Assembly (NCBI GenBank): GCA_007694935.1
Contig: REES01000057.1
Location: forward strand, 1 to 42,555
Reading direction: 5' to 3'
DNA from: Rhodospirillales bacterium
GTDB lineage: Bacteria > Pseudomonadota > Alphaproteobacteria > Rhodospirillales > Defluviicoccaceae
DNA: 42,555 nucleotides
Program-made: the position numbers and the translations under genes
Shown: positions 35,156-42,555 of the stretch, one piece after another
How positions within the stretch are numbered: the first letter of the stretch is position 1
Layout: every line of letters begins with the position of its first letter
The notes under the pieces: model-generated
The model's input: the letters and a program-made list of their open reading frames with translations, nothing else
The model's database searches: none
Told to the model about the DNA's origin: nothing

Positions 35156-35893
35156 TCATCCGTCCCGACGGGCGGCGATCAGGTATTCCACGTTGCCCTC
35201 CGGGCCGGTGATCGGGCTCGGGGTGACCCCCAGCACCAGCCAGCCCGGCCGGGCGGCGATCCAGTCGCGGATGCGCGCACACACCGCCTCCCGCACTGCC
35301 GGATCGCGGACCACCCCTCCTTTGCCAACACTGCCGCGGCCAGCCTCAAACTGCGGCTTGATCAGCGCCACCAGTCGAGCGTGCGGCGCTGCCAGGGCCA
35401 GTGCCGCCGGCAAGGCCAGTTCCAGGCCGATAAAGCTCACATCGCAGACGATCAGCTCCACCGGTTCCGGCACCTGCTGCCGGGTGAGGTTGCGGACGTT
35501 GGTCCGTTCCAGCACCACCACGCGGGGGTCGGTGCGGAGTTGCCAGGCGAGTTGGCCGTGGCCGACATCGACCGCGTAGACCCGCGCCGACCCGCGTTCC
35601 AGCAGCACATGGGTGAAGCCGCCGGTGGAGGCGCCGACGTCCAGACAGACCCATCCCGCGGGGTCGATGGCGAAATGGTCGAGGGCGTGGACCAGCTTGA
35701 CCCCGCCGCGGGAGACCCACGGATGCGTCCGCCCGCGCACGTCCAGGGGTGCATCGGCAGGCAAGCGGTCACCCGCCTTGGCCACCCGCCGGTCGCCGCT
35801 GAACACCAGTCCGGCGAGGATCAGGGCCTGTGCCTTGGCCCGGCTCTCGGCCAGGCCGCGGTCCACCAGGAGTTGATCAACCCGATGGTTCAC
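35156..35893 (-). CDS. tlyA: TlyA-family rRNA (cytidine-2'-O)-methyltransferase
   Basis: This 245-residue protein has an N-terminal S4 RNA-binding domain (RVDQLLVDRGLAESRAKAQA followed by LILAGLVFSGD) and a FtsJ-like methyltransferase domain. The SAM motif is CLDVGASTGGFTHVLLERG; later motifs are VYAVDVGHGQLAWQL, IVCDVSFIGLELAL and LIKPQFEAGR. TlyA methylates 2'-hydroxyls of rRNA cytidines. The start is GTG at 35893. It is the last gene of the minus-strand cluster, 31 bases after dxs. Only six bases separate its stop from the convergent rubredoxin gene. Confidence 0.92.
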   Translation of the reverse strand: MNHRVDQLLVDRGLAESRAKAQALILAGLVFSGDRRVAKAGDRLPADAPLDVRGRTHPWVSRGGVKLVHALDHFAIDPAGWVCLDVGASTGGFTHVLLERGSARVYAVDVGHGQLAWQLRTDPRVVVLERTNVRNLTRQQVPEPVELIVCDVSFIGLELALPAALALAAPHARLVALIKPQFEAGRGSVGKGGVVRDPAVREAVCARIRDWIAARPGWLVLGVTPSPITGPEGNVEYLIAARRDG

Positions 35894-35924
35894 GCCGCGC
35901 CGTGCAGGCTCCGCTATAACCCCA

Positions 35925-37850
35925 TCAGGCCCGCGCCGCTTCCGCCGCCTCGCGGTCGAGCCCCAGCGCGTTCAGCGCGGTGGCGACGATGTGGCGGGCG
36001 TTGAGCCCGGCTTCGTCGTACTGGCGGTCCGGCGTGTCCTGATCGATGAAGCGGTCCGGCAGCACCATCGGCCGGAAGCGGAGGCCATTGTCCAGCAAGC
36101 CCGCCGTGGCCATGGACTGCATCACGTGTGCGGCAAAGCCGCCGGCCGATCCTTCCTCGATGGTGATCATCACCTCGTGCTCGGTGGCAAGACGGCGAAT
36201 CAGTTTCATGTCCAGCGGTTTGGCGAAGCGGGCGTCGGCCAGCGTCGCCGACAGGCCACGCGCAGCCAAGTCTTCCGCCGCCTTGCCGGCCTCCTTGAGC
36301 CGGCCCCCCAGGCTCAGCAGAGCAATCTTGGTGCCTTCGCGCAGAATCCGGCCGCGGCCGACTTCCAGCGGCACGCCGTGGGGTGGCAGCTCGACGCCGA
36401 GGCCCTCGCCGCGGGGGTAGCGGAAGGCGCTCGGCCGGTCGTCGATGGCCGCCGCCGTCGCCACCATGTTGACCAGCTCGGCCTCGTCACCCGGCGCCAT
36501 CACCACGAAGCCGGGCAGGCAGCACAGGTAGGCGAGGTCGAACGCCCCGGCATGGGTGGCGCCGTCGGCGCCCACCAGACCGGCACGGTCGATGGCGAAG
36601 CGTACAGGAAGTTGCTGGATCGCCACGTCATGCACCACCTGGTCATAGCCGCGCTGCAGGAACGTGGAATAAATGGCGGCGAACGGCTTGAAGCCTTCGG
36701 CGGCCAAGCCGGCGGCGAAGGTCACCGCATGCTGTTCGGCGATGCCGACATCGAAGAACCGCTCGGGAAACCGCTTGGCGAACAGGTCGAGCCCGGTGCC
36801 CGCGGGCATCGCCGCGGTGATGGCGACGATGCGGGAATCCCTCTCCGCCTCCCGGGTCACCGCCTCGGCAAACACCTTGGTGTAGGCGGGGGCGTTGGCC
36901 TTGGCCTTGACCTGCTCGCCGGTCACCACGTCGAACTTGCCGACGCCATGGAACTTGTCGGCTGACCGTTCGGCCGGCGGATAACCGTGTCCCTTGCGGG
37001 TGACCACGTGCAGCAGCACCGGTCCCGGCTGGCGATCGTCGCGCAGGTTGCACAGCACCGGCAGCAGGTGGTCGAAATTGTGCCCGTCGATCGGCCCGAC
37101 GTAGAAGAACCCCATCTCCTCGAACAGGGTGCCGCCGGTGACCAGGCCGCGGGCGTACTCCTCGGCCCGGCGTGCCGCCTCGCTCAGCCGGCGCGGGAAC
37201 TTGCGGGCGACGTCGGCGGCGAAGTGGCGGACAGACCGGTACGGCTTGGAGGAGATCAGCCGCGACAGGTAGGCGCTCATCGCTCCCACCGCCGGCGCGA
37301 TGGACATGTCGTTGTCGTTGAGGATAACCAGCAGTCGGGAATCCATCGAGCCGGCGTTGTTCATGGCCTCGTAGGCCATGCCGGCGCTCATCGCGCCGTC
37401 ACCGATCACGGCGATCACCTGGTTGTCGTCACCCCGGAAGTCCCGGGCCACCGCCATGCCGAGGGCGGCGGAGACGGAGGTGGAGGTGTGGGCCGCCCCG
37501 AACGGATCGTAGGGGCTCTCCGATCGCTTGGTGAACCCGGACAGGCCGCCGCCCTGGCGCAAGGTCAGCATGTGCTGGCGCCGCCCGGTGAGGATCTTGT
37601 GCGGATAGGCTTGGTGGCCGACGTCCCAGATCAGCCGGTCGGCCGGGGTGTCGAACACGTAGTGCAGTGCGATCGTCAACTCGACGACCCCGAGGCTGGC
37701 GCCGAGATGTCCGCCGGTGATGGAGACCACACGGATGGTCTCCTCACGGAGTTCCTTGGCCAGTCGCGGCAGCACGTGGGGATCGAGCGATTTCAGGTCG
37801 GCGGGATTGCCGATGCGATCAAGCAGTGCAGGCGTGACGTTCTGGGTCAA
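35925..37850 (-). CDS. dxs: 1-deoxy-D-xylulose-5-phosphate synthase
   Basis: This 641-residue thiamine-diphosphate enzyme makes DXP from pyruvate and glyceraldehyde-3-phosphate, the first step of the MEP isoprenoid pathway. The ThDP/Mg motif is [18 protein letters not shown] (from about residue 150) followed by [13 protein letters not shown]. The pyrimidine-domain segment is [18 protein letters not shown], with the conserved Glu. The start is TTG at 37850 ([13 protein letters not shown]), preceded by AAGGAG seven bases away, a textbook ribosome site. Length and domain order are normal. It lies 82 bases after ispA on the same strand, followed by tlyA. Confidence 0.97.
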
Positions 37851-37932
37851 CTCGTATCTCCTTAACCATCGGCCCCGGCGGGTGGAGCCCCTCGTGCTGC
37901 GACCTCTGTCGCACCTTGCGCCTGGATGACAT

Positions 37933-38820
37933 TCAGTTGCGCCGGTTCACCACGAAGCGCGCCAAGCCGCGCAATGGATCCGCATCGTCCGAGAACATGT
38001 CGAGATGGCGGATCGCCTGCTCCGCCAACATGGCGGATTGATGGCGGGCGCGCTCGGGGCCGAGCAGGGTGACGAAGGTGGCCTTGCCGGCGGCTTCGTC
38101 CTTGCCGGTGTTCTTGCCGACCTCCGACGGATCGCCTTCCACGTCGAGAAGGTCGTCGACGATCTGGAACGCCAAGCCGAGATCGTGGGCATAGGCGTGG
38201 AGCGCGGCACGGGCGGAATCGGAGGCCTTGCCGAGGATCGCGCCCGAGATGCAGGCGAAGCCGATCAGGGCACCGGTCTTCAGCCGCTGCAACCGGGTCA
38301 CCTCCTGTTCGCTCAGGCGGTGGTGCTCGGCCAGCAGGTCCAGCATCTGCCCGCCCACCATGCCCTCGGCCCCGGCGGCGCGGGCAAGCTCGACCACCAA
38401 GTCGCTGCGGACCCGCGGGTCCGAATGGGTTGCCGGTTGCGCCAGCACCTCGAAGGCGAGGGTCAGCAGTGCATCCCCCGCGAGGATGGCGGTGGCTTCG
38501 CCGAACTTGACGTGCACCGTCGGCAGGCCGCGACGGAGCTCATCGTCATCCATCGCCGGCAGGTCGTCATGCACCAGGGAATAGCAGTGCACCAGCTCCA
38601 CCGCGGCTGCGACCCTGAGTGCATAGGATGGGGTGACGTCGAATAGCGCCGCGCCCGCGGTGACCAGAAACGGACGGATCCGCTTGCCACCCGACATTGC
38701 GGCATACCGCATGGCCTCGATCACCCGTGCCTCCGGATCGGAGGTCATCGGCAAAAGACCGTCCAGGAAGTCATTCACGGCGCGCGCGTTGTCGGCGAGA
38801 GCCGACTTGATGTCGACCAA
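37933..38820 (-). CDS. ispA: Farnesyl (polyprenyl) diphosphate synthase
   Basis: This 295-residue trans-prenyltransferase condenses IPP with allylic diphosphates. The first Asp-rich motif is [17 protein letters not shown] (DDxxxxD type, as in short-chain bacterial enzymes). The second is [13 protein letters not shown]. The GGKRIRPFL and GQMLDLLAE segments complete the family pattern. Size and position before dxs favour farnesyl diphosphate synthase over geranylgeranyl synthase. The start is TTG at 38820 with a GAGGGGGG ribosome site close upstream; no ATG exists at the expected N-terminus. It begins 13 bases after the xseB stop. Confidence 0.93.
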
Positions 38821-38833
38821 AGGTCCCCCCTCT

Positions 38834-39085
38834 TTATTCCAGGTCCGCGGGACCCGAGGTGATCTTGCCGTCCGCGCCCAGCACGATCCGCTCGACCCGT
38901 GCTTCGGCCTCCTGCAGCTTCCCCTCGCAGTGGCGCTTCAGGGCTGCCCCGCGCTCGTAAGCGGCGATGGCCTCGTCGAGCTTGGCCGCTCCGCTCTCCA
39001 GCCGGCGGACGATGTCCTCGAGTTCGGCCAGAGCGTCTTCGAAGCTCAGGGTCTCAACCGCCCGTGGGGGCTGTTCGTCCGGCAT
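38834..39085 (-). CDS. xseB: Exodeoxyribonuclease VII small subunit
   Basis: This 83-residue helical protein forms the small subunit of exonuclease VII with XseA (not in the window). The family helix pair is visible as [20 protein letters not shown] followed by [25 protein letters not shown]. The start at 39085 ([11 protein letters not shown]) has AGGGGCGG just upstream; upstream in-frame residues to 39133 are not typical. It lies between the histone-deacetylase-like gene (90 bases upstream) and ispA (13 bases downstream) on the same strand, a conserved alphaproteobacterial order. Confidence 0.93.
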
Positions 39086-39175
39086 GTCCGCCCCTGCAAC
39101 TGATGCGCCGGAGAATACGGGCGCCGCTACCACCAGGCAAGGGGCGCACGGCCGGTTCCTTGCAGGCGGTGGTGC

Positions 39176-40105
39176 TCAACTGCCCATCAGCGCCTTGACA
39201 TGGACGGCGACGCTGGCGGCGAGCGCCTGCAGGTCGTAGCCGCCCTCCAGTGTCGACACCACCCGGCCGCCGCAACGCTTCTCGGCGATCGCCAGTAACT
39301 CCCGGGTGACCCAGGCGAAATCCTCCGTCTGGAGGCGAAGCTGGGCGAGTGGATCGCGGGCATGGGCATCGAACCCGGCAGAAATGAGAATCATGTCGGG
39401 GCGGAAGTTGTCCAGCGCCGGCAGGATGCGCTCGATGTACGCTTGGCGGAATTCCTCGGAGCCGGCACCGGGCCGGAGCGGGACGTTGCAGATGTTGTTA
39501 TAGACCCCGGTCTCGTGCTCCATGCCGGTGCCGGGGTAGCACGGCCACTGGTGGCTGGAGGCATAGAACAGGTCGCGGTACCGGAAGAAGTAGTTCTGGG
39601 TGCCGTTGCCGTGGTGGACGTCGAAATCCACCACTGCGATCCGTTCCAGGCCGTGCACGCGGCGGGCATGCTCGGCGGCGATGGCCACGTTGTTGAACAG
39701 GCAGAAGCCCATCGCCTGGGAGACCTCGGCGTGATGGCCGGGCGGCCGCACGGCGCAGAAGGCGTTCCGCACCGCGCCGCTCACCACCGCGTCCACGGCG
39801 GCGCAGATGCCGCCGACCGCGTGCAGCGCGGCGTTGCCGGAGGCGCTGTTCATCGCGGTGTCGGCGTCCAGATGCACGTGTCCCCGCTGCGGCACGTTCT
39901 CGAAGATCGCCTCCACATAGAAAGGCGCATGCACCCGTTCGATCTCGTCCAGAGGGGCGACGGGTGCCTCGCGACGGTCCAGGTAGGCGAACTCCTCGGC
40001 TTCCAGCGCCTTCATGATCGCCTTCAGCCGTTCGGGTGATTCCGGATGCCAAGCGCCCATCTCATGATGCAGGCAGATCGGGTGGGTATAAAGCGCTGTC
40101 GGCAT
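39176..40105 (-). CDS. Histone-deacetylase-family (class II-like) amidohydrolase
   Basis: This 309-residue zinc hydrolase belongs to the acetoin-utilisation/histone-deacetylase superfamily. Conserved segments are HPESPERL, then VRPPGHHAE (catalytic His pair), DFDVHHGNGTQ with zinc ligands, SAGFDAHARDPLA with the third ligand Asp, and LEGGYD near the end. Bacterial members of this class deacetylate small amides such as polyamines or act on protein acetyl-lysine; the substrate here is unknown. The start at 40105 has AGGA eight bases upstream. The gene lies 35 bases after the branching-enzyme-like gene and 90 bases before xseB. Confidence 0.92.
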   Translation of the reverse strand: MPTALYTHPICLHHEMGAWHPESPERLKAIMKALEAEEFAYLDRREAPVAPLDEIERVHAPFYVEAIFENVPQRGHVHLDADTAMNSASGNAALHAVGGICAAVDAVVSGAVRNAFCAVRPPGHHAEVSQAMGFCLFNNVAIAAEHARRVHGLERIAVVDFDVHHGNGTQNYFFRYRDLFYASSHQWPCYPGTGMEHETGVYNNICNVPLRPGAGSEEFRQAYIERILPALDNFRPDMILISAGFDAHARDPLAQLRLQTEDFAWVTRELLAIAEKRCGGRVVSTLEGGYDLQALAASVAVHVKALMGS

Positions 40106-40140: not shown

Positions 40141-42555
40141 TTATGTGGTCGAACCGGCGGTTTCGGCAACAGCGGCGGCGGTTGTCGGTTGGGTCCCCAC
40201 GTATTCCAGCACCACCGCAGCATAGGGTGGCAGCACCACGGCGAGCGAGCAAGGCCGGCCGTGCGTCGGCTCAGGATCGCTCCAGATGCCACCCGCGTTG
40301 CCCACGTTGCTTCCACCGTATCGGGCCGAGTCGGTGTTGAGCCGTTCGGCATAGTAGCCGGCATGGGGCACGCCGATCCGATAGCCCTGGCGGACCACCG
40401 GCGTGAAGTTGCACACTACGGCGACCACCTGTTCGTCGTCCGCCCTCAGGCGGAGATACGAGATCACGCTCTGGTCGGTATCATTGCAGTCGATCCAGGC
40501 AAACCCGCTGTCCGCGCAGTCACCCTCATGCAGTGCCGGGATCGCCGCGTAGACCGCATTCAAGTCGGCGATCAGCGATTGCATGCCCTTGTGCAGCGGA
40601 TCGTCCAGCATGTGCCAGTCGAGGCTGACCTCATGGTTCCATTCGCGATATTGGGCGAATTCATTGCCCATGAAGAGAAGCTTCTTGCCCGGCTGCGTGT
40701 ACATCAGGGCGTAAAACAGACGAAGATTGGCGCATTTGTCCCAGTGGCTGCCCGGCATCCGGCCGATCAGGGGCCCCTTGCCGCCGGTGACCAAGCCGTG
40801 GGAGACCGGCGTCACGTGATTCTCCTGAAACACGTAGGACGGGCCGTGGGTCAGCTCCTCGTGATAGTATTTCCGGTGGATCGGGTTGCGCGCCATGTGG
40901 CGCAGCACCTCGTGCAGCCAAGCCTCGTTCCATTTGAAGCCGAAGCCGAGGCCGCCGACGAAGGTCGGCCGGGACACCATCGGCCACCCGGATTCCTCCT
41001 CGGCGACGGTGAAGGTGCCGGGTGCTTCCCGGTGGACCGCTTCGTTCAGGTGCCTGAGGAAGTCGATGGCCTCCAGGTTCTCATGGCCGCCGTAGCGGTT
41101 GTGCGACCACTGCCCGGGGGCGCGGCCGTAGTCGAGGTAGAGGATCGCGGCCAGTCCGTCGATCCGGAGGCCGTCGACGTGATACTGCTCCAGCCAGAAC
41201 AGCGCATTGCCGATCAGGTAGTTGGCCACCTGTGGGGAGGCGTAGTTGTAGAGCAGGGTGTTCCAGTGGGGATGGCGCTGCTGCCGCGGATCGGGATGCT
41301 CGTACAGCACCGAGCCGTCGAAGTGGGGGAGCCCGTCCGCCTCGTCGGGGAACTGCACCACCACCCAGTTGAGGATTACCCCGATGCCGGCCTGGTGGCA
41401 GCGGTCGATCAGCCGGCGGAGGCCATCCGGATCGCCGAACCGGCCGGTCGGGGCATAGAGGGCGGTCGGATGGTAGCCGAGCGATCCCTCGAAGTTGAAC
41501 TCGCTCACCGGCAGCAGCTCGATATGGGTGAACCCCAACTCCTTGACATAGGCCGGAAGCTCCTCGGCCAACTCGGCGTAGGTGAGCCAGCGGGCTCCTT
41601 CCTCCGGCTTGCGCCGCCATGAGCCGAGGTGCACCTCGTAGATGGCGATGGGGTCCTTGGCGGGTTGGCGGTCCTTCCGCGCCTGCATCCAGGCCTGATC
41701 GCCCCAGCGGTAGCGGTTGAGGTCGGTCACGATGGAGGCGGTGCCGGGCCAGCGCTCCGCCTGGAACGCCAGCGGATCGCTTCGCATCATCGGCCGCGCT
41801 TCGGGGGCGGTCTTGATCTCATACTTATAAAGTTGGCCCGTGCCGGCGCCCGGCACGAAGATCTCCCAAACGCCGCAGTCGTGGCGCAGCCGCATGCCGT
41901 GGCAGCGGCCGTCCCAGCCGTTGAAATCCCCCACCACCGCCACCCGGAAGGCATTCGGCGCCCACACCGCGAAGGTCACCCCGACGATGCCGTCGACCTC
42001 CGCCGGATGGGCGCCGAGCTTGGCGAAGGCGCGCCAGTGCTTGCCCTCGCTCAGCAGGCGGGTGTCGCGATCGTCCAGGATCGGCGGGAACCGGTAGGCG
42101 TCATCGACCACCGCCTCCCCCAGTTCGGTGACCACCGCGAGCCGATAGCGGAACGGGGCCGGCCGGCCCGAGACGGAACCGGCGAACAGTCCCGCCTCGT
42201 GCAGGCGGCGCATCGGGGCTACCCGTTCCCCCGTCGCGGCATCAATGATCGCCGCCTCCTGCGCCTGGGGCAGGAACGCGCGCACCACCAGATCCCCTTC
42301 CGGGGTCAGCGCATGCATGCCGAGGAAGCCGAACGGGTCGCGGTGGCTTGCCGCCACCACCGCGTGGATGTCGCCGTCCGCGGCCAGCGGCGGCAGCGGC
42401 TTGGCCGGAGCCGGTTTCGCAGCCGGTTTCGGGGCCGCCGGCTTGGCGGCCGCCGGTTGCGGTGGCGGAGTCGGGGCCGTTGCCGGCTTGGCTGCCGGGG
42501 CTGCCGGTTTGGTCGCTTCCGGCTGAGGCTTTGATTCGGTCCCGGGCTTGCCCGC
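40141..42555 (-). CDS. Glycogen branching enzyme homologue with altered active site, 5' end beyond window
   Basis: The frame is open from the right edge to the stop at 40141 and aligns throughout with GlgB, the 1,4-alpha-glucan branching enzyme (GH13 with an N-terminal CBM48). Recognisable parts are SHRDPFGFLGMH, then FAVWAPNAFRVAVVGDFNGW, HVDGLRIDGLAAILYLDYGR and the closing TDSARYGGSNVGNAGG. The nucleophile Asp (41158-41160) and acid/base Glu (AEEESGWP) are kept. Region I reads NWVVVQFP instead of DWVPxHFP, and region IV reads SHGLVTGGK instead of SHDEVVHGK, so the transition-state Asp is Gly (codon 40795-40797). Upstream of VVAASHRDPF lie about 50 residues rich in Lys, Pro and Ala. No start codon is certain; GTG 42360 is possible. 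Branching activity is doubtful. Confidence 0.85.
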   Translation of the reverse strand, partial: AGKPGTESKPQPEATKPAAPAAKPATAPTPPPQPAAAKPAAPKPAAKPAPAKPLPPLAADGDIHAVVAASHRDPFGFLGMHALTPEGDLVVRAFLPQAQEAAIIDAATGERVAPMRRLHEAGLFAGSVSGRPAPFRYRLAVVTELGEAVVDDAYRFPPILDDRDTRLLSEGKHWRAFAKLGAHPAEVDGIVGVTFAVWAPNAFRVAVVGDFNGWDGRCHGMRLRHDCGVWEIFVPGAGTGQLYKYEIKTAPEARPMMRSDPLAFQAERWPGTASIVTDLNRYRWGDQAWMQARKDRQPAKDPIAIYEVHLGSWRRKPEEGARWLTYAELAEELPAYVKELGFTHIELLPVSEFNFEGSLGYHPTALYAPTGRFGDPDGLRRLIDRCHQAGIGVILNWVVVQFPDEADGLPHFDGSVLYEHPDPRQQRHPHWNTLLYNYASPQVANYLIGNALFWLEQYHVDGLRIDGLAAILYLDYGRAPGQWSHNRYGGHENLEAIDFLRHLNEAVHREAPGTFTVAEEESGWPMVSRPTFVGGLGFGFKWNEAWLHEVLRHMARNPIHRKYYHEELTHGPSYVFQENHVTPVSHGLVTGGKGPLIGRMPGSHWDKCANLRLFYALMYTQPGKKLLFMGNEFAQYREWNHEVSLDWHMLDDPLHKGMQSLIADLNAVYAAIPALHEGDCADSGFAWIDCNDTDQSVISYLRLRADDEQVVAVVCNFTPVVRQGYRIGVPHAGYYAERLNTDSARYGGSNVGNAGGIWSDPEPTHGRPCSLAVVLPPYAAVVLEYVGTQPTTAAAVAETAGSTT

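Follow-up and report, generated by a model that had tools for sequence, protein, structure and literature searches.

The window, the whole stretch of 42,555 nucleotides that was analyzed, is the entire contig C138 of a 3.09-Mb genome (G000) and ends within a gene for a paralogue of the branching enzyme GlgB. Judged by its sequence, the paralogue is a GlgB by descent and domains that fails the catalytic definition of GlgB. In the Defluviicoccus family the paralogue forms a maintained clade in which every readable copy (10 of 10) has lost catalytic residues; relatives in gammaproteobacteria, which belong to the wider clade, retain the catalytic triad. Taking all analyses together, we consider it probable that the protein is a maintained noncatalytic, glucan-binding pseudo-branching enzyme that works like plant ISA2, as a glycogen targeting, scaffold, or regulatory subunit.

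RESULTS

The window gene encodes a complete GlgB core

The paralogue gene (Table 1) comprises 804 visible codons and a stop codon; its 5′ end is absent, as the contig ends at position 42555. No stop interrupts the minus-strand frame between 42555 and the stop codon at 40141, in agreement with the first-pass annotation, which had seen neither stop nor frameshift. That annotation had also let the gene start at a GTG at 42360. This GTG need not be the start, because the frame leaves the contig at 42555 and the copy in another genome of the same genus (G001) has 211 residues ahead of the core.

The GlgB_N, CBM48, GH13, and C-terminal beta domains were all present in the order found in GlgB, so that the proposed likeness to GlgB along the whole length held. 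The protein scored 869.4 with PRK05402 (equivalog cutoff, 741), 803 with TIGR01515 (cutoff, 463.95), and 779.6 with PRK12313 (cutoff, 577). These curated branching-enzyme models do not require the lost active-site residues, and since their cutoffs are exceeded, automatic annotation would name the protein a branching enzyme. Its best model and structure matches were by far branching enzymes, and it does not belong to the isoamylase group of GH13. A structural comparison with a known GlgB, suggested earlier, was made with an AlphaFold2 model of the core built with 38 related sequences (mean pLDDT, 92.3). The predicted core superposed on the E. coli branching enzyme 5e6z (VIA-align, Z 51.6, rmsd 1.6 over 594 residues). 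The many intact GlgBs in the alignment would lead one to expect such a fit, which does not establish function.

Table 1. Features of the degenerate glgB paralogue in the window, and loci of the fused GlgB proteins of the family
Feature	Coordinates	Strand	Basis or remark
Degenerate glgB paralogue	40141..42555	minus	Open frame; GlgB domains; clade of orthologues
Pro/Ala/Lys-rich N-terminal tail, visible part (~57 aa)	42385..42555	minus	Translation; composition
GlgB_N (PF22019), residues 62-154 of visible frame	42094..42372	minus	Domain match
CBM48 (PF02922), residues 179-261	41773..42021	minus	Domain match; invariant-site conservation
GH13 barrel, active site eroded (approximate bounds)	40498..41688	minus	Domain match; residue comparison
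Alpha-amylase_C (PF02806), residues 687-785	40201..40497	minus	Domain match
Asn replacing region I Asp (D335)	41368..41370	minus	Codon AAC
Gln replacing region I His (H340)	41353..41355	minus	Codon CAG
Nucleophile Asp (D405), kept in window copy	41158..41160	minus	Lost in 8/10 family copies
Acid/base Glu (E458), kept in window copy	40999..41001	minus	Asp in G010, Gln in G009
Gly replacing transition-state Asp (D526, region IV)	40795..40797	minus	Codon GGC; D526 lost in 10/10 family copies
Fused GlgB-GlgB protein	L061:5605-9264, L062:5469-9128, L063:5392-9123, L064:5532-9281, L065:5361-9125

Catalytic residues are lost in all readable copies of the family

In GH13 enzymes, D405 attacks the substrate, E458 donates a proton, and D526 helps to hold the sugar in the transition state (residue numbers are those of E. 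coli GlgB; K-12 b3432 served as the ruler). A check of the minus-strand codons confirmed the three replacements reported before, Asp to Asn and His to Gln in region I and Asp to Gly in region IV, as well as the flanking change, LVTG following the Gly where E. coli has EVVH. The nucleophile and the acid/base were indeed intact, and Y300, R403, and H525 were also kept, but the triad D405/E458/D526 is incomplete, as D526 is Gly.

The active site could be read in 10 family copies (Table 2); all 10 lacked D526, 8 lacked D405, and 2 lacked E458. The replacements were lineage specific; for the nucleophile D405, five different ones (Pro, His, Asn, Ser, and Ala) occurred among the eight copies. The first-pass annotation had proposed a search for a clade sharing the motif SHGLVTGGK. 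Of the 10 copies, only that of the window carries the exact motif; G001 shows SHGLVSGGK, and the same region is lost in the other genera by other changes. The concern that the loss might be confined to one sequence did not apply, since it is common to all readable copies. A sequencing or assembly error was ruled out by the occurrence of the loss in ten family genomes with lineage-specific residues, and a single-sequence oddity by the orthologues in other family genomes.

Table 2. Residues of the paralogue at Y300-D335-H340-R403-D405-E458-H525-D526, in this order
Genome	Motif string
Window (G000) and G001	YNQRDEHG
G002 and G007	FDHCSEYT
G004	YGHRHEHT
G005	YDHRPEHE
G006	YDHRNEHE
G008	LDHRPEHE
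G009	YDQRAQHE
G010	FDKRPDHG

The loss of D526, and of D405 in most copies, should put an end to branching, as far as the sequences tell. One might instead suppose that the two carboxylates kept in the genus of the window support slow hydrolysis or glucan transfer of a different specificity. Since D405 and E458 are retained in G000 and G001 and the full triad in the four gammaproteobacterial relatives described below, residual or altered activity is possible in these proteins. As an explanation of the paralogue, however, altered catalysis is quite unlikely, given the loss of D526 in every readable family copy and of D405 in eight, and as no common set of replacements hints at one new chemistry.

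Erosion is concentrated in the GH13 domain

A protein search revealed two further full GlgBs in the window's own genome, on C16 and C145, with all eight active-site residues intact; as judged by these residues, the second canonical glgB that had been asked about thus exists twice. All 16 ordinary GlgBs of the family in which the eight positions were readable showed YDHRDEHD; the partial copy G006:C219 shows Y300 only. G003:C284, one of these 16 and cut at the N terminus, was considered as a possible orthologue of the paralogue and rejected; its residues are intact, it groups with ordinary GlgBs, and it was counted as intact. In a scripted comparison of 100 GlgB frames from relatives and from a public-genome scan, 95 kept all eight residues (a few of the 95 being one gene under two locus identifiers; the named-genome part covered the best 80 of 580 relatives). 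The five exceptions were four copies of the same paralogue from named genomes and one gammaproteobacterial relative (L079). Loss of these residues is therefore not an ordinary trait of GlgB.

We next took the positions that are unchanged in 97% or more of 112 intact rows, in which some genes recur under two identifiers. On average, 9.91 of 10 paralogue copies kept such sites in the N1 domain, 9.68 in CBM48, and 9.47 in the C-terminal domain, but 7.86 in GH13. Sites kept by at most 5 of the 10 copies made up 26 of 133 in GH13 versus 2 of 54 elsewhere (Fisher P of 0.0057, a guide only, as it treats sites as independent, which they are not). For the most part, the eroded GH13 sites belong to the conserved regions I to IV or to the stretches that separate them, and many are located in the glucan-binding groove. 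The earlier count of "at least three" replaced residues was thus right about the three but understated the change, because many positions invariant in intact enzymes differ in several copies, mostly around the pocket.

The paralogue is present throughout the Defluviicoccus family

All 11 family genomes examined, among whose matching records are Defluviicoccus sp. SSA4 (G010) and Rhodospirillales MAGs, carry the paralogue, although G003 shows no more than a fragment at a contig edge. When 60 genomes including the window's own were searched, orthologues were found in 9 of the 10 other family genomes at 1037 bits or more, and all other matches except the query itself scored at most 967 bits; searching the 11 family genomes with a profile gave the same picture. 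G003 (79% complete) has an N-terminal piece only (locus L045), which is cut off by the contig edge and has glgP next to it, arranged as in the other genomes. This C228 fragment, holding the end of the tail and part of GlgB_N, was taken to be the G003 orthologue.

Among 49 genomes of the same order outside the family, 17 gave a match; the best hit was read in 16 of them and was intact in all 16, and the 17th match was weak and covered 58 residues. In a class-wide draw of 172 genomes, 30 matched at the strict threshold, one being the window's own, and the 11 loci read of the 29 others were all intact.

In each of the eight family copies whose tail is complete and readable, the core is preceded by 180 to 356 residues, whereas 11 of 11 measured intact GlgBs of the family have 17 to 23; the tail lengths are upper estimates, the first Met being taken as the start. 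The eight tails are of low complexity, with 8 to 24% Pro, 21 to 37% Ala, 3 to 13% Lys, and 4 to 12% hydrophobic residues. Their net charge varies, from +5 to +17 in seven and −15 in G005. In Defluviicoccus sp. SSA4 the stretch before the core (L038:6000-6740) is tail-like in makeup but is spread over several frames with stops, perhaps owing to errors of long-read sequencing or perhaps as a real breakage.

A second kind of dead GlgB domain appears, on sequence grounds, to exist in the family. A protein of 1,220 to 1,255 residues in five genomes (G002, G005, G007, G009, and G010) carries a partial degenerate GlgB half fused ahead of an intact GlgB (Table 1; domains checked in L061 only).

The paralogue evolves under constraint

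The pairwise dN/dS of the paralogue core was 0.100 for G000/G001 and 0.078 for G002/G007. For the intact GlgBs the values were 0.089 and 0.031 (G000/G001) and 0.082 (G002/G007), and the fused GlgB-GlgB protein gave 0.104, so that the paralogue lies at or slightly above the upper end of the intact range. Judged by these ratios, it is under purifying selection. A paralogue in slow decay, retained by chance or for residual binding only, would be expected to lose different residues in each lineage through relaxed constraint on the pocket, as observed, and the G000/G001 value is slightly above those of the intact pairs. Such decay is nevertheless very improbable in view of the dN/dS of 0.08 to 0.10, the presence in 11 of 11 family genomes (one as a fragment), the conservation of the domains outside GH13, and the open core in 10 of 10 copies, the tail of G010 being the sole broken region observed; long open frames exist in the four gammaproteobacterial genomes, too. 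The view that the gene is maintained and not a recent pseudogene was thereby upheld.

The most constant neighbor is a glycogen gene

In 8 of the 10 judgeable genomes (G001 to G008) the paralogue was divergent to glgP; in G009 and G010 a divergent glgP was absent beside it. The search for glgP gave one match in each of eight family genomes and two contig-edge pieces each in G005 and G006. No glgP was found in the assembly to which the window belongs; the contig breaks off within the paralogue gene, and an assembly gap at this end would explain the absence of glgP. Downstream on the same strand (window positions 35156-40105) follow genes for an HDAC-family protein, xseB, a polyprenyl synthase, dxs, and an FtsJ-type protein, and the order HDAC-xseB-ispA-dxs is found in both genomes of the window's genus. 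Elsewhere, hyp genes (G002, G004, G006, G007, and G010) or an alpha/beta hydrolase gene (G005, G008, and G009) lie downstream. With the downstream genes varying in this way, the most constant neighbor is the glycogen gene on the upstream side.

glgA follows glgP in G002, G003, G007, and G008 and, by coordinates, also in G005, G006, G009, and G010; in G000 and G001 it is on another contig. This arrangement bears on the idea that the paralogue regulates active GlgB or GlgA by hetero-oligomerization, with the tail serving only as a linker or for solubility and not for glycogen tethering. Intact GlgBs in the same genomes, the precedent of ISA1/ISA2, and the position of glgA after glgP in eight family genomes and directly facing the L079 gene speak for it. 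In G009 and G010, however, the glgP-glgA pair is away from the paralogue, and we regard this alternative as unlikely.

Tailed relatives in gammaproteobacteria keep the triad

Tailed relatives of the same clade occur in four gammaproteobacterial genomes, G060 to G063 (L079, L222, L223, and L224), with tails of 195, 285, 255, and 227 residues. A search of L079 relatives found this type, in long open frames, in 4 of 38 genomes including that of L079 itself. All four keep D405, E458, and D526, and all four have Phe for H340. At 13 positions that are otherwise invariant (12 in GH13), the usual residue is missing from each of the four and from 8 or more of the 10 family copies, and the exchanges T461S and H503Y are common to all 14. 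In a tree without the active-site columns, nine family copies and the four relatives formed one clade (support 100/100). The GlgBs that surround this tailed clade are mostly alphaproteobacterial, and the intact GlgBs of G060 and G063 lie elsewhere in the tree. The free tree nests the four weakly (87/65) among the nine alphaproteobacterial copies (AU P of 0.289). The simplest reading of these sequences would be lateral transfer between the Defluviicoccus family and gammaproteobacteria, in either direction.

The four genomes, in which no rRNA gene was found, might conceivably come from glycogen accumulators of the Competibacter type. In L079 (labeled Chromatiaceae bacterium MASpbin.6) the tailed gene is part of a glucan cluster with glgA, which directly faces it, glgE, a GT4 transferase gene, and an intact glgB. 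In G063 its neighbors are genes for a TPR-CHAT protein and cytochromes, with no glycogen genes; the adjoining same-strand gene (L223:4287-7856) encodes the TPR-CHAT protein of 1,189 residues.

Separate observations were made on GlgA. The GlgAs of the Defluviicoccus family are 68 to 71% identical to that of L079 (L079:3480-5000), and those in the other compared loci are about 31 to 37% identical; the L079 type also occurs in five other L079 relatives and in G035, at 56 to 63%. G019, a genome of the same order and another family (L017, G019:C227), encodes a GlgB that falls within the C16-type clade of the Defluviicoccus family; its GlgA shares 76% identity with the L079 protein. Contamination or transfer would account for both.

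DISCUSSION

If the paralogue is a noncatalytic glycogen-binding subunit, its N-terminal, CBM48, and C-terminal domains, together with the remodeled cleft, would bind glycogen without cutting it. The presumably flexible tail would hold or recruit a partner, be it GlgP, GlgA, an active GlgB, or some other component of the cell, and the protein would act on the glycogen particle in targeting, scaffolding, or regulation. The paralogue and glgP might perhaps be controlled together through a shared promoter region. The link to GlgP is the weakest step of this explanation. Because erosion has reached many sites of the glucan-binding groove, the cleft may simply bind more weakly and not have been repurposed. 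According to PMC10254366, E. coli GlgB has twelve binding sites for oligosaccharides, the seven found first being more than 15 Å from the active site; sites I, II, and VII are reported to be conserved in enterobacteria only and may not apply to the paralogue.

A bolder version can be offered tentatively, and we hold it to be possible but rather doubtful. Here the tailed dead GlgB would coat or tether glycogen particles and direct glycogen phosphorylase (or GlgA or GlgB) to them; it would have become fixed in the Defluviicoccus family and been passed laterally to or from gammaproteobacteria, where the intact-triad form survives, and bacteria would then have an equivalent of ISA2 that arose independently.

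Defluviicoccus live in phosphorus-removal plants, and passages of PMC9041414 describe the recycling of glycogen as a key feature of these bacteria. That comparative study tabulates glgB as present in 8 of 9 genomes, and a footnote at the glgE row records glgB plus glgB1 (in one genome glgB plus glgB2); the passages contain no mention of an inactive glgB copy. Within the open-access literature, as judged by titles and abstract openings, no report of a clade-wide dead bacterial GlgB was found. Should the paralogue be a glycogen scaffold, it would offer a testable handle on the bacterial control of glycogen particles and be another case, independent of the first, in which a dead GH13 paralogue has come to serve the control of storage glucan. 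The gammaproteobacterial relatives with an intact triad open the order of residue loss to experiment.

The paralogue resembles bacterial GlgB (GH13; E. coli b3432, PDB 1m7x/4lpc/5e6z) in domain order, predicted fold, and NCBIfam branching-enzyme models; unlike the E. coli enzyme, the family copies lack D526 (10 of 10) and mostly D405 (8 of 10) and carry the long tail where readable. With the tailed GlgBs of G060 to G063 it shares the clade, a long tail (195 to 285 residues there), T461S, H503Y, and the 13 lost invariant positions, but these proteins have D405, E458, and D526 intact and Phe for H340. Plant ISA2, as described in PMC12510319, varies at four or more of five conserved residues and is found in a heterotetramer with ISA1. 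Like ISA2, the paralogue is, by its sequence, a GH13 protein whose catalytic residues are substituted clade-wide and which stands beside a paralogue with an intact active site. It belongs to another GH13 group than ISA2 (GH13_11), and any partner of it would be hypothetical, whereas ISA2 is known to form a complex with ISA1.
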